In this document: in pieces, positions 3,622 through 55,753 of the stretch
Numbering within the stretch: the first letter of the stretch is position 1
Layout of the letters: each line of letters begins with the position of its first letter
Assembly (NCBI GenBank): GCA_021776685.1
Contig: JAJFFJ010000154.1
Span: 1 to 61,704 of the forward strand
From: Alphaproteobacteria bacterium
GTDB taxonomy: Bacteria; Pseudomonadota; Alphaproteobacteria; Bin65
Length of the DNA stretch: 61,704 nt
Direction: 5' to 3'
The notes under the pieces: generated by a model
Database searches by the model: none
Seen by the model: the letters and a program-made list of their open reading frames with translations, nothing else
What the model was told of the DNA's origin: nothing
Translations under genes and position numbers: made by a program

Positions 3622-4521
3622 CTACAACGCTTCCGCGCCGGAGATGATCTCGATCAGTTCTTTCGTGATCATCGCCTGGCGTGTGCGGTTGTAGGTGAGC
3701 GTGAGTTTATGAATCATATCGCCCGCGTTGCGGGTTGCGTTGTCCATTGCTGTCATCCGCGCACCATGCTCACCGGCCTGGTTCTCCAGCAGCGCTCGAA
3801 ACATCTGCACTGCCAGATTGCGCGGCAGCAGGTCATCGAGAATTTCTGCCTCGTCCGGCTCGAAATCATAGACCGACCGGTCCGCTTCGGTATCGCTGGC
3901 AGCCTCGTCTGACTCGTCCGCCTCGGGAATAGCGAACGGCACCAACTGCTGTTCGGTCACGATCTGGGCGATGGCAGACTGGAACTTGTTGTATATCAGA
4001 GTGCAAACATCGAATTCGCCTGCATCGAACAACTCGCTGATCTTGTCGGCTACCTGATCGGCCGCATCAAACGTCAGTTTGGGCCGGTCAAGTTCCGAGT
4101 AGGACTCGATAATCTTGTCGCCATGGTCGCGGCGCATCAGGTCCCGCGCCTTTCGGCCAACGCACATCAGCTTCACCTGCTTGCCATCACTCAGAAGCTG
4201 GCTGATTTTTCGCCGTGCGCGCCGGGCGACCGAGCTATTGAAGCCACCACAGAGACCGCGATCAGACGTCACCAAAACCAACAGGTGTACGTCTTCCTTG
4301 CCGGTGCCCGACAGCATGGGCGAAACACCTTCGCGCCCCTGTACTGCCGAGGACAGTGAGCCGAGCATGCGTTCCATACGCTCTGCGTAAGGACGCGCCG
4401 CCACGGCGGACTCCTGAGCGCGCCGCAGTTTCGCCGCCGCGACCATCTTCATGGCCGACGTGATTTTTTGCGTCGACTTGACGCTCGCAATGCGGTTGCG
4501 GAGTTCCTTCAGGCTGGACAT
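3622..4521 (-). CDS. atpG: F1F0 ATP synthase gamma subunit
   Basis: 299 aa. The N-terminal rotor helix ([20 protein letters not shown], residues 4-23) and the C-terminal helix ending [20 protein letters not shown] are both the conserved coiled-coil halves. The middle Rossmann-like region includes [12 protein letters not shown] near residues 88-99. An acidic insert (about residues 203-225, rich in Asp and Glu) makes it slightly longer than the E. coli protein, as in several alphaproteobacteria. It forms the central shaft of F1. It lies 22 bp after atpA. Confidence 0.98.
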
Positions 4522-4543
4522 GGCCGCCTATCCCCTGCCCGGC

Positions 4544-6079
4544 CTAAGCAAATGCTTTGACGAAGTCGTCAAGGAAGCCCTCGAGCTTGGCCTTGTTGTC
4601 GTCTGACAACTCACCTGTATCCCGGATGCCGGCAAGGATGTCTTTGCCCTTTTCCCGGATCTCGGAAAGATACTCCGCCTCGAACCGTGTCACGTCGCGC
4701 ACGTCTATGCCGGCGAGATAGTTCTTGTCGCTGACGCCTGCGAAAATCACGACGACCTGCTCTTCCATCGGCAGAGGCGAATACTGGTCCTGCTTCAGCA
4801 GCTCGGTCAGCCGGGCGCCTTTGGCCAGCAATTGCTGGGTGGCGGCATCAAGATCCGACGCGAACTGGGAAAAAGCTTCCATCTCACGATACTGCGCCAA
4901 CTCCAGCTTGATCGAACCGGCCACCGACTTCATCGCCTTGGTCTGAGCCGCAGAGCCCACACGCGACACCGACAGGCCGACGTTAATCGCCGGGCGGATG
5001 CCTTTGTAGAACAGGTCGGTTTCAAGGAAGATCTGACCGTCCGTAATCGAAATCACGTTGGTCGGGATGTAAGCGGACACGTCATTTGCCTGGGTTTCAA
5101 TGATCGGCAACGCCGTCAGCGAGCCCGAGCCATTATCGTCGTTCAACTTCGCCGCACGCTCCAGCAAACGGGAATGCAGATAGAAAACGTCGCCCGGATA
5201 AGCCTCGCGCCCCGGCGGCCGGCGCAGCAGCAATGACATCTGCCGGTAGGACACTGCCTGCTTGGACAGATCGTCATAGACGATCACCGCGTGCATGCCA
5301 TTATCGCGGAAATACTCGCCCATGGCGCAGCCGGTATAGGGTGCCAGAAACTGCAGCGGCGCCGGCTCGGAGGCCGTGGCGGCGACCACGATGGAATATT
5401 CCATCGCGCCCTGTTCCTCGAGGGTTTTGACCACCTGCGCAACAGTCGAGCGCTTCTGGCCAATGGCGACATAGATGCAATAGAGCTTCTTGCTCTCGTC
5501 GTCGCTGCTGTTGTTGTGCTTCTGGTTGATGAAGGTATCGATCGCCACCGCAGTCTTGCCGGTCTGGCGATCGCCAATGATCAGCTCGCGCTGGCCGCGG
5601 CCCACCGGCACCAGAGCGTCGAGCGCCTTGAGACCGGTCTGGACCGGCTCATGCACCGATTTGCGCGGAATGATGCCCGGCGCCTTTACCTCGACCAGAC
5701 GGCGTTCCACGTCTTCGAGCGGGCCCTTGCCGTCAATGGGGTTGCCCAAGCCATCGACCACGCGGCCCAACAGGCCCTTGCCCACCGGCACATCGACGAT
5801 TTCGCCGGTGCGTTTGACGATGTCGCCTTCCTTGATGGTGCGATCATCACCAAAGATCACGACGCCCACATTGTCGACTTCCAGGTTCAGGGTCATGCCC
5901 TTGATGCCACCGGGAAACTCGACCATTTCACCGGCCTGGACATTGTCCAGTCCATAGACACGGGCGATGCCGTCACCGACGGAGAGAACCTGGCCGACCT
6001 CTGCGACGTCAGCATCAGAATCAAAATCCTCAATCTGCTTCTTGAGGATTGCAGAGATTTCAGCGGCCTGGATGTCCAT
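4544..6079 (-). CDS. atpA: F1F0 ATP synthase alpha subunit
   Basis: 511 aa, full length. The P-loop GDRQTGKT is at residues 169-176. The arginine-finger region ([20 protein letters not shown]) lies near residues 364-383, and the C-terminal helical domain ends [10 protein letters not shown]. Alpha binds nucleotide at non-catalytic sites and supplies the arginine finger to beta. It follows atpH by only 12 bp, which suggests translational coupling. No frame problem is visible. Confidence 0.99.
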
Positions 6080-51927: not shown

Positions 51928-52623
51928 CTACTCTGCCGCGGCACGGCCTTCCTGCATCAGAGACCAGACGTAGCTGTCGCGTCGCCTGTGGTTGTCCTCC
52001 CAGGCCTGGGGGAACTCGTCCGGGACGGCCTTCGAGACCAGATCACTGGCGAGCAGCGCGTCGGTCCAGGCGCTGACGAGGGGAAACCCGTCGAGCAAGC
52101 CGGTATTCGCCACCGCGTCGTTCATGCGGAAGCGTTGCAAAAGCGGCGCGTAGGCAGCGTCCACCAGGCAGATTTCCGGACCATTGAAGAAGGGACCGGT
52201 TTCCCGTTCTTTCTCCAGCGCCTCCTCGATCAATTCCAGCGCCTTGCGGGCGGCGGGCAGCGCCGCCTCGACATCCGCTGCGTTCTTGGCGTAGCCAATT
52301 TTGCCGAGCGCGCCGGAGAAGTCGTGCACGAAGTCGGTCCAGGCCCGGTTGCGCGCCCGCTTGATCGGGTCGGCGGGATGAAGCTGCGGGGCCACAATCT
52401 CATCGAGATATTCGCAGATGGCGCTGGATTCGAAGAGGATGTCATCATCCACCTTCAGCACCGGCACCTTGCCCCGGGGTGAAATTTCCAGGAACCAGTC
52501 GGGCTTGTCCCAAAGATCAACATAGGTGACGTCGAACTCGACATCTTTAGCGCGCATCAGAATGACAGCGCGCTGTACCCACGGTCAGGTGAAGGAACTG
52601 ATCAGGTGATATTTCTTGGTCAT
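51928..52623 (-). CDS. Putative selenocysteine-containing glutathione S-transferase (in-frame UGA at codon 13)
   Basis: Read from ATG 52623, with AGGAA 8 nt upstream, the gene codes 231 aa with one internal TGA at 52587-52585 (codon 13). The residues before it (MTKKYHLISSFT) are a normal GST first strand and those after it (PWVQRAVILMRAKDVEFDV) are a normal GST helix 1, so the TGA sits exactly where GSTs of this type have Cys in CPxxQR. The rest is a complete GST: EISPRGKVPVLKVDDD, LFESSAICEYLDEIV, then the helical domain. Starting at Met 23 (52557) instead would remove strand 1 and the catalytic residue. A SECIS-like hairpin follows the TGA. Alternatives: sequencing error or a nonsense mutation. 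No sel genes are in the window. Confidence 0.8.
52549..52587 (-). promoter_or_regulatory. Candidate bacterial SECIS element
   Basis: On the minus strand, ten bases after the TGA (52587-52585), AGCGCGC (52574-52568) pairs perfectly with GCGCGCT (52555-52549) around the 12-nt loop TGTCATTCTGAT. The loop begins 18 nt after the TGA and has G as its second base. From memory, this fits the accepted bacterial SECIS layout (loop roughly 16-37 nt from the UGA, G among the first two loop bases). A shorter internal TCA/TGA pairing within the loop is possible. Confidence 0.65.
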
Positions 52624-52677
52624 GGGGGATTTCCTGAAAGGTTGTTATCGCCCGAAGGCCCGCATGGTAAGCGGGGA

Positions 52678-54648
52678 TCAATATCTGGTCAAAGTCTGAT
52701 CCGTATGCCGCCACAGCATATACTCCTTCACCGCCACGGCGACGCCCAGAACCAGGCCGGCCACATCGGTCCATTCCCCGCCGGGGAAGGCGTTGGCCGG
52801 CACCATCAGCGCCAATCCGGCAACGCCGGCCGCCAGTCTGGTCGGTGCATCCATTACGCGGAACATGTAGCCGGTGACAGCTGCAGAAACGAGCGCGACC
52901 CCGACCACTGCGGTCGCCGCCGCAAGCGCGATCTGGCCGGCTGATCCCTGCATCAGCAATGCCGGCGAAAAGACGAACAGGACCGGCACGACGAAGGCGA
53001 TCCAACCGAACCTCACGGCGGCGATCCCCGTGGCCATGGCGTTTGTACGGGCGAGGCTGGCGGCAGTGAATGCCGCGATCGCCACCGGTGGCGTGATCAT
53101 CGACATCATGCCGAAATACATGACGTAGAGATGGGCCGCCATCTTGTCGACGCCAGCCTTTTCGATCGATGGCGCCACCAGGGTTGCCAACAAAACATAG
53201 ACGCCGGCCGTGGGCATGCCCATGCCCAGGATGATGCAGACCACCGCGGCGAGCGCCAGTAGCAGGAACAGGTTGCCGCCGGCCAGGTCGATCAGGACCT
53301 GGGCCAAGGCGTGGCTGAATCCCGTGAGGTTGAGGACGCCGATAATCATGCCGGCTCCGACGCAAATCATCAGGATATCGACGCTGGCGATGCCCGTCCG
53401 TCGCAAGGCGTCGTAGACTGCCCGCACCGGCATGCGTTTGCCGCCGTAGCCGAACAGCACCCCTGTGACCAGGATGGTCGCCGAGGCGTAGAGCGCGGAT
53501 GTCTCCGGCTCTGCATTCAGCCAGAAGAGCGTGCCGATCAGCACGGCGAAGGCGAGCGGGTAGTGCCAGCCCATCAGAATGACACGGCCGATGCGCGGGA
53601 TGAGTGATGGATCCACAGGTCTGAGGCCACTTCGCGCCGCAACCAGATCCACCTGGATAAACAGCGCCACGTAATAAAGGATCGCCGGCAAAAGCGCCGC
53701 CAGCACAACGGTGCCGTAAGACTCTTCAACGAACGTGGCCATCAGAAAGGCCGCTGCGCCCATGATGGGCGGCATCAATTGTCCGCCGGTGGATGCGACG
53801 GCCTCGATTGCCGCTGCGAGGCGGGGCGTAAAGCCGCCCTGTCGCATCAGCGGAATGGTGATGACACCGGTGGACACAACATTTGAAACGGCGCTGCCAG
53901 AGATGGAGCCGAACAGGCCCGACGCGACGATGGCGATCTTTGCCGAGCCGCCGCGGAACCGGCCCATCAACGACACCGCAAAATCAGTGAAGAAGGCGGA
54001 GCCGCCGGACCGTGACAGCAGATTGCCGAAAAAGATAAATGCGATAACGATGGTACAGGCCACCGTGGTCGGCAGGCCGAGCATGCTCTGCGTATCCCAG
54101 GTGACGTAATAGATGGCGTGGTCGGCGCTGGTCGGCAGACCTTGCAACCCACCGGGCATGATGTCCGCCACCTGGGTGTAGAGCAGGAAAAACACCACAA
54201 TCGAGAACAGCACCCAACCGGTGGTGCGGCGCAGCCCTTCCAGACAAACCACCACCAGGATCGACGCAACGATCAAACCGTCGAGCGGGCGTTCGGTAAC
54301 CAGCTCTGACAGGGTCGTGTGATTGTAGGCGACGTAGGCTGAAGACAGGAAACCGGCCGCGGCAAACACCCAGTCAAACCAGGGCACATGCCCTTTCGGC
54401 TGTTTCCGGCTGAAACGAAAGCTGAGGAACAGCACCGGCAGGGCCAACCCCAGGATCGCCGCGAGAAACTGCTGGGTGGTGAAGGCAAGATCGAGCGTCA
54501 CCCGATACAAATCTGCCGCCCACCCCAGAGACGCCAGGGTCACCAGCGTCGCGAACAGGGCGACGACAATACGTGCCGCCGGTCCAGCCGGTCCGTCAAT
54601 GTCGTCGCCTGGTGACTCGGTCCCCGGGTCGAGGCCGGGGTCAGTCAT
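52678..54648 (-). CDS. TRAP transporter fused permease (DctQ-DctM type, TAXI-associated)
   Basis: 656 aa, strongly hydrophobic with about 16 membrane segments. The N-terminal third is the small-subunit-like part (GWVLFSIVVFFLLYTQVADI), and the rest the large DctM-like part (FFGNLLSRSGGSAFFTDFAV, GSISGSAVSNVVSTGVITIP, STGGQLMPPIMGAAAFLMAT, GMGMPTAGVYVLLATLVAPS). Fused permeases of this size pair with TAXI binding proteins, as here: the TAXI gene ends 6 bp upstream. They import organic acids with an ion gradient; substrate not predictable. The Sec-GST gene starts 54 bp downstream in the same direction. Confidence 0.95.
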   Translation of the reverse strand: MTDPGLDPGTESPGDDIDGPAGPAARIVVALFATLVTLASLGWAADLYRVTLDLAFTTQQFLAAILGLALPVLFLSFRFSRKQPKGHVPWFDWVFAAAGFLSSAYVAYNHTTLSELVTERPLDGLIVASILVVVCLEGLRRTTGWVLFSIVVFFLLYTQVADIMPGGLQGLPTSADHAIYYVTWDTQSMLGLPTTVACTIVIAFIFFGNLLSRSGGSAFFTDFAVSLMGRFRGGSAKIAIVASGLFGSISGSAVSNVVSTGVITIPLMRQGGFTPRLAAAIEAVASTGGQLMPPIMGAAAFLMATFVEESYGTVVLAALLPAILYYVALFIQVDLVAARSGLRPVDPSLIPRIGRVILMGWHYPLAFAVLIGTLFWLNAEPETSALYASATILVTGVLFGYGGKRMPVRAVYDALRRTGIASVDILMICVGAGMIIGVLNLTGFSHALAQVLIDLAGGNLFLLLALAAVVCIILGMGMPTAGVYVLLATLVAPSIEKAGVDKMAAHLYVMYFGMMSMITPPVAIAAFTAASLARTNAMATGIAAVRFGWIAFVVPVLFVFSPALLMQGSAGQIALAAATAVVGVALVSAAVTGYMFRVMDAPTRLAAGVAGLALMVPANAFPGGEWTDVAGLVLGVAVAVKEYMLWRHTDQTLTRY

Positions 54649-54654
54649 GTGGGC

Positions 54655-55608
54655 CTATTTCCACATGCCTTTCTCTTTGTAGAACTTGATCGCACCCGGG
54701 TGATATTTGACCGGGCCGAGCTCGGTGACCATGCGTTGTGGGCTGAAGCCCGCCATGGCCCGGAACGACCCGATCATTCCCTTGCGATTGTCATGCATCG
54801 CCTTGGCCACCTTGTAAGCCATGTCATCCGAGACCTTCGCACTGGTCAGCACCAGATAGGGATAGGCCATCACATAGGTGGGCTTGACGATGCCAGCCAT
54901 ACGCTTGCCGGGCTTCACTTTCAGGGCATAAGCCACCGGCACAAACTTTTTCAGCCGCGCCATCGCGGCCGGCGACGGATCGATCGGCAGGGCGCGGATG
55001 CCACCCACTTTTGCATTCACCTGCAGCACCTTGCCGGAGCCGACGGCGAAGAAGAACACGTCCGACTTGCCGGCCATGAAATCATTGGCGTTGCCGATAA
55101 TGCCGGCGGCCTTGACAATCTGAACGTCCTTGTAGGTCATGCCTGCATTCGCAAGCTGGCCGTCCATCAGCACCTTGAGCGTGCGCGCCGCGCCAAAGAC
55201 GCCCGGGACTCGCTTGCCCTTCAGGTCCGCGATGGATTTGATCGGCGAATCCTTGCGCGTGAAGATCGCCACGCGCAGCGGCAGCATCACGGCGACGACA
55301 CGAATGTTCGGCTGCTGGCGATCCTTATAGGCGCCGGTGCCGGTGACCGCGTAGCGCGTCTCCAGCGCATTGGCGAGGGCGAACTGGATCTCGCCCTTGT
55401 TCACCGCCGGTACATAGACGCCGCTGCCACCATAGGGGCGCACCAGCATGCGCAGCCCTGCAGCGCCGACGACCTTGGCGATGGCGGCGCCCGCAGAATA
55501 GGTGAAACCGCCCTGTTTGGACGTGCCGATGCCAACCACCTGGGCATGGGCAACGCTTGTGGCTGCCATGGCTGCAGCGGATACAATCATCAAAATCGAG
55601 CTTCTCAC
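54655..55608 (-). CDS. TAXI-family TRAP transporter solute-binding protein
   Basis: 317 aa from a GTG at 55608, chosen because GGAGGAAA lies just upstream and it gives a clean signal peptide (MRSSILMIVSAAAMAATSVA-HA). An ATG at 55677 would add a non-secretory leader. TAXI pattern: VVGIGTSKQGGFTYSAGAAI, LRMLVRPYGGSGVYVPAVNK, IKSIADLKGKRVPGVFGAAR, DFMAGKSDVFFFAVGSG. It captures the substrate in the periplasm and delivers it to the fused permease. The gene is divergent from the amidohydrolase. Confidence 0.95.
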   Translation of the reverse strand: MRSSILMIVSAAAMAATSVAHAQVVGIGTSKQGGFTYSAGAAIAKVVGAAGLRMLVRPYGGSGVYVPAVNKGEIQFALANALETRYAVTGTGAYKDRQQPNIRVVAVMLPLRVAIFTRKDSPIKSIADLKGKRVPGVFGAARTLKVLMDGQLANAGMTYKDVQIVKAAGIIGNANDFMAGKSDVFFFAVGSGKVLQVNAKVGGIRALPIDPSPAAMARLKKFVPVAYALKVKPGKRMAGIVKPTYVMAYPYLVLTSAKVSDDMAYKVAKAMHDNRKGMIGSFRAMAGFSPQRMVTELGPVKYHPGAIKFYKEKGMWK

Positions 55609-55753
55609 AGTTTCCTCCACGAAATTCCCTGATCCGCGATCAGGATGCCGTTGTTTCAGCGTTTTGACGTGGCGCATATCTAATCCGAAATGCCATCACT
55701 GGGAAGCCAAACCATGCCTTATCTGCTGATCGGCAAGGCAAAGGAGCCAAGAT

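Follow-up and report, generated by a model that had tools for sequence, protein, structure and literature searches.

Glutathione S-transferases (GSTs) containing selenocysteine (Sec) are already known from surveys of ocean sequence. The Sargasso Sea selenoproteome of 2005 reported a Sec-containing GST with four unique sequences (PMC1088965), and the table row for Sec-GST in the GOS survey of 2008 reads 12, 8 and 1,036, of which we take 12 to be the Sec sequences (PMC2398784). Reviews of 2022 and 2026 also include the protein, and name PPR62222.1 and MEK9676863.1 as Sec-GST accessions (PMC9312934, PMC13188914). The initial annotation of our locus had pointed to such reports from bacterial selenoproteome surveys, and the two surveys bear this out. 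In their GST passages the protein is a member of COG0625/PF13409 with a Sec codon, a description that our predicted gene fits. It is well supported that our gene belongs to this known type, and its evolutionary pattern is informative: the clade, the reversions and the second gain of Sec presented below come from this analysis and are absent from those survey passages. A further point of comparison is SeSh14, an engineered seleno-GST in which Sec replaces the active-site Ser13 of the scaffold, giving strong glutathione peroxidase activity. It is a chemically modified, shuffled tau-class enzyme and not a natural one (PMC10812501); its peroxidase gain shows that selenium-glutathione chemistry is feasible on a GST fold. 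Among open-licence papers, searched by titles and the beginnings of abstracts, no functional study of a natural Sec-GST was found.

The window, the whole stretch of 61,704 nucleotides that was analysed, carries the gene on its minus strand together with the following features.

51928..52623, minus strand: predicted Sec-containing omega-like GST of 231 amino acids, read through TGA codon 13
52585..52587, minus strand: in-frame TGA at codon 13, predicted to encode Sec in place of the catalytic Cys of the CPWVQR motif
52631..52635, minus strand: AGGAA, Shine-Dalgarno-like, 7 nt before ATG 52623 (read from the sequence)
51928..52557, minus strand: truncated open reading frame of 209 amino acids starting at Met 23 (ATG 52557), from the program-made ORF list

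Translation of the frame from 52623 to 51928 gives 231 residues with an ATG start, a final TAG and a single internal stop, the TGA at codon 13. With this TGA taken as a residue the motif reads U-P-W-V-Q-R. The claims that the frame has only this one internal stop, that a ribosome site precedes ATG 52623 (AGGAA at 52635-52631) and that the gene is otherwise complete and intact all agree with our reading. The upstream neighbour gene itself terminates in TGA (52680-52678), so this genome uses TGA as a normal stop codon. As the initial annotation expected of an ordinary gene call, the program-made list opens the gene at 52557 and loses the active site, and the same holds for all TGA loci compared: in 26 of 26 the program-made ORF begins beyond the TGA. 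The gene very probably encodes a selenoprotein, a GST-fold enzyme whose UGA 13 would be decoded as Sec under the direction of a hairpin lying directly after it. Codon 13 of the homologues, the sel genes and a codon-constrained hairpin support the Sec-containing GST reading put forward earlier. We computed the frame, its conservation, the machinery, the codon constraint in the hairpin and a fold model.

Homologues were collected as 65 loci from a scan of named genomes and by searching 61 genomes (our own and 60 relatives), of which eight had matches, our own included. The ten same-family genomes searched gave no GST match at E 1e-20, so the gene is patchy among near kin. Codon 13 is readable in 73 of 74 loci, the window's included (L093 lacks the N-terminus), and is TGA in 27 and Cys in 46, with nothing else; thirteen further loci show 11 TGA and 2 TGC. 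In a draw of 385 genomes of the class (own included), 14 match at E 1e-60, 12 with TGA and 2 with TGC. The in-frame TGA is thus aligned with the Cys of homologues, which places it at the catalytic position as had been proposed, and the alignment suggested as a check gave Cys or the same TGA, with no random stops. The genome search lists one TAA inside the L024 match; our own translation, which ignored the last 30 bases of each match, showed no other stop in any row.

These counts bear on several other explanations. A one-base sequencing or assembly error at codon 13 might be considered given that the source assembly is in 158 contigs (at 98.85% completeness), but other public records, with proteins approximately 50-66% identical to the window protein, carry this TGA too, and it accompanies sel genes; an error is extremely improbable. 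Scarcely any more credible is a pseudogene, that is, a former Cys-GST with a nonsense mutation in its catalytic codon. A single base change does turn TGC or TGT into TGA, and an unrecoded product would lack the active site, yet the same TGA stands at codon 13 in 38 of 86 tree rows (36 of them in one clade), with TAA or TAG never at that place, and the codons downstream of it are constrained. Finally, the protein might start at Met 23, as the 209-residue ORF from ATG 52557 has it. It would then be short and GST-like but lack the active-site motif, and the region upstream would be untranslated. Against this, the amino acids of codons 4-12 are mostly conserved and the changes in their codons are silent: among 26 TGA genes, Tyr5 is TAT in 13 and TAC in 13, and His6 is CAC in 10 and CAT in 16. 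This silent variation with the residues kept indicates that the part upstream of the TGA is translated in the same frame. Moreover, the ORFs of the Cys orthologues L039, L053 and L059 open at the codon equivalent to codon 1, the L045 and L050 ORFs extend further upstream, and AGGAA precedes codon 1, which leaves the Met 23 start with next to no probability.

We built the tree from 86 rows with the Sec/Cys residue masked and L093 left out for its unreadable N-terminus. It is a quick tree with SH-aLRT support only, and 34 of its 81 inner branches are drawn open as weak. The 38 TGA rows include alphaproteobacterial, gammaproteobacterial and SAR324-titled records. The window gene falls inside a clade of 41 rows (SH-aLRT 98) with 36 TGA and 5 Cys, and the nearest rows outside it, L142 and L143, have Cys. 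Two pairs among the 36 TGA rows are identical, so the first 26 and the later 10 are not fully independent. Since the five Cys rows of the clade fall into two groups, the fewest changes there are one gain of Sec and two reversions to Cys, although the two reversions rest partly on weak inner forks. Over the whole tree the fewest Sec/Cys changes are four, and the starred branches by themselves require two. The treekit program warns of long branches that come together at two points of the tree, one of them beside the SAR324 group.

That group consists of L084 (2971-3594(+), in a record titled SAR324) and a relative, L145, approximately 70% identical. Both belong to another GST subfamily and carry TGA at the equivalent position; in L084 it stands before PYAQR. 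The two are predicted to form a second, separate group of Sec-GSTs. Overall the tree fits one gain of Sec with two Cys reversions in the clade and a separate gain in the SAR324-type GST.

Immediately downstream of the TGA lies the element that would direct Sec insertion.

52549..52574, minus strand: predicted SECIS hairpin with a 7-bp stem (AGCGCGC/GCGCGCU) and a 12-nt loop (52567-52556)

As in bacterial SECIS elements, the stem-loop follows the TGA directly and its small apical loop contains a G, here at the second position. In the minimum-energy fold of the window sequence four more pairs form within the 12-nt loop. The loop starts with UGUCAU in the window gene and with CGUGAU in the other 35 of the 36 clade TGA rows; the five Cys orthologues have CGUCAU (2), CGCGAU (2) and GGUGAU (1). 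A stem of at least 6 consecutive pairs is found in 34 of the 36 TGA genes and of 5 pairs in the other two (L138 and L141, which form a bulged 6-pair stem when folded rather than simply scanned), against at most 5 pairs in the five Cys orthologues. The usual stem is GCGCGC/GCGYGC. Variation is mostly one-sided (GC to GU); in L136 both arms are changed (AAGGGC/GCCCTT).

Folding energy was tried as proof of a SECIS element and is weak alone. The 60-nt stretch has a z of -0.71, and compared with synonymous shuffles 26 TGA genes average a z of -0.73 and the 5 Cys orthologues one of -0.22; the window gene reaches z -2.37 (P 0.004), and the shuffles of single genes often equal the observed pair count (P 0.03 to 0.46 among TGA genes). 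The informative test is the codon constraint over many genes, measured as the excess of the commonest codon over the gene's own usage in 32 conserved degenerate columns. For the 36 TGA genes codons 24, 20, 18 and 19 rank first to fourth (z 11.2, 8.3, 7.8 and 7.1), and together they account for a large part of the hairpin arms and for the beginning of the loop. The same four codons also lead among 40 columns in the first 26 TGA genes, where Arg18 is CGC in all 26; the five Cys orthologues use four codons for it. Rfam gave four matches near or over the GST gene, all below the gathering score, and none to the hairpin at that score.

The genome itself holds the Sec machinery that the initial annotation asked to be searched for. 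On contig C84 (L121 in the coordinates below), selA (583.6 bits, cut-off 267.9), selB (403.6, cut-off 242.25), tRNA-Sec (68.5, cut-off 47; called by ARAGORN as tRNA-SeC with anticodon tca) and selD (304.2, cut-off 125) lie in one run on one strand, and two more TGA-containing genes flank them.

L121:447-1550, plus strand: AhpD-related protein with in-frame TGA
L121:7621-8728, minus strand: AhpD-related protein with in-frame TGA

In this pair the TGA stands in the contexts CVY-U-TTSH and CYY-U-TVSH (CxxU-xxxH). Both match the (seleno)protein model NF041238 (AhpD_rel_CFYUT) with 471.1 and 412.1 bits (cut-off 175), a family other than GST. With two such members beside selABCD, the genome appears to make use of UGA decoding quite apart from the GST. 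Formate dehydrogenase was considered as the reason for the Sec machinery and rejected: the best TIGR01553 match has 129.9 bits, below the cut-off of 814.2, and none of the 11 listed matches has an internal stop, which covers the TIGR01553 type of the enzyme only. Two details of the cluster are of separate interest. SelD is fused with an N-terminal Pyr_redox_2 flavoprotein domain (L121:1609-3885(-)). The tRNA-Sec gene (L121:3985-4080(-)) lies 13 nt past the end of the selB ORF (4094-6052(-)) and is not nested in it; nesting inside selB is reported for some alphaproteobacteria (PMC8124441).

Across genomes the machinery goes with the TGA form. A search of 49 genomes at E 1e-60 (50 less that of L046) detected selA in 24 of 26 TGA-GST genomes against 5 of 23 Cys-GST genomes (Fisher p 4e-7) and selB in 22 of 26 against 4 of 23 (p 3e-6), where the p values treat related genomes as independent, which they are not, and absence from a bin may reflect incompleteness. 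The sample leaves out the genomes of L024-L030, L076-L081, L083, L085-L090, L092-L095 and L145, and those of the loci from the 385-genome draw except G000 and G021. Neither selA nor selB was matched in the TGA genomes G021 (77% complete) and G080, nor selB in G064 and G086. It might be argued that UGA 13 is read as another amino acid, by a near-cognate tRNA or as Cys through the Sec machinery, with no selenium involved. Readthrough of UGA and Cys insertion are known in principle. Nonetheless, selA, selB, tRNA-Sec and selD are all present here, selA and selB accompany the TGA form, and the TGA stop of the neighbour gene means that recoding is not general; such a reading is very unlikely.

The predicted selenoprotein can be placed by family and fold. 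It matches five GST models of Pfam (PF13409 at E 3.3e-21) and a CLIC-like one, and it is a member of COG0625/PF13409. Four N-terminal models start at residues 5-12, run across the TGA and end at residues 75-79, in line with the claim that GST sequence lies on both sides of codon 13. Eight NCBIfam models match at E 0.001 and none reaches its curated cut-off; the best is NF011693 (PRK15113) with 56.2 bits against 150. The AlphaFold model (38 aligned sequences, mean pLDDT 95.3) has strand 5-9 and helix 14-25 flanking position 13. The best sequence matches are Leishmania TDR1 (phmmer E 1.2e-25), pyrimidodiazepine synthase and omega GSTs (human GSTO1, E 4.6e-20), whose CP motif aligns with residues 13-14. 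In structure, tau, omega and DHAR GSTs and TDR1 score Z 22-25 among the 50 entries listed: TDR1 24.3 (4ags), GSTO1 22.6 (1eem) and LigG 22.3 (4g10). Plant tau-class GSTs reach 24.8, matching the omega-type scores, so that the fold does not fix the GST class. Omega-type GSTs (human GSTO1/GSTO2, Leishmania TDR1, LigG) have their catalytic CP motif at the same place, with Cys where our protein has predicted Sec, and the omega trait of a catalytic residue opening helix 1 in this motif is present. An N-terminal extension before strand 1 is another omega-class feature. The window protein lacks it: its strand 1 is residues 5-9, and in several of the GSTO1 chains listed the counterpart of its residue 8 is residue 26 to 31, GSTO1 having an N-terminus approximately 19 residues longer. 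By sequence, then, the protein is a GST-fold enzyme nearest to omega-type (Cys) GSTs among solved structures.

We infer both the incorporation of selenium and its chemistry in the window protein. UGA 13 would be decoded by SelB with Sec-tRNA(Sec), guided by the hairpin, and Sec would take the place of the catalytic Cys of omega-type GSTs, immediately ahead of helix 1, at whose start GSTs bind glutathione. The selenol would then attack an oxidised substrate (a disulfide, hydroperoxide or electrophile), a Sec-Se-S-glutathione intermediate would form, and a second glutathione would reset the enzyme. The genome encodes a glutathione synthetase (415.1 bits, cut-off 299.05). Judging from the omega-like Cys-GST relatives, which also underlie the peroxide, disulfide or electrophile chemistry proposed initially, the protein is probably a thiol transferase, reductase or peroxidase rather than a classical conjugating GST.

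As to evolution, neither selA nor selB was matched in the Cys genomes of L039, L045 and L050. The L053 genome gave selA alone, and the L059 genome combines selA with a selB match that contains an internal TAG. We tentatively suggest, while regarding it as somewhat less probable than the contrary, that the GST fold acquired Sec at least two times, in the proteobacterial CPWVQR clade and in the SAR324-type CPYAQR group, that Cys returned on two occasions within the CPWVQR clade, one of them in genomes where neither selA nor selB was detected, and that the enzyme may be a naturally occurring GST-fold glutathione peroxidase or thiol reductase. If so, the GST fold would join classical GPx as a second structural basis for selenium-glutathione catalysis. 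The 36 TGA rows of the clade and their natural Cys relatives offer a yardstick for what selenium adds, and the window contributes a complete predicted Sec-GST from a 98.85%-complete assembly that also holds the Sec machinery. The results also expose an annotation gap, with ORF calls dropping the active site in every TGA locus compared and no NCBIfam model at cut-off. As a separate observation, the selB match with the internal TAG (L108, in the genome of L059) comes from a genome whose GST has Cys, and this selB is possibly decaying.

Conserved gene neighbourhood was tried as a clue to function and rejected. We clustered the ORFs lying up to 4 kb away from 31 loci and looked at the 16 largest clusters; after the GST itself, the next large ones mostly overlie the GST gene, in another frame or on the opposite strand, and the context therefore gave no function. 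In the window two transport genes precede the Sec-GST.

52678-55677, minus strand: genes for a DctM transporter and an NMT1-like binding protein, directly upstream of the Sec-GST

The GST gene begins 54 nt after the DctM gene, which is itself preceded by the NMT1-like gene; neither is among the 16 largest clusters. A downstream ORF starting at approximately +590 to +720 recurs in six of the 31 loci.
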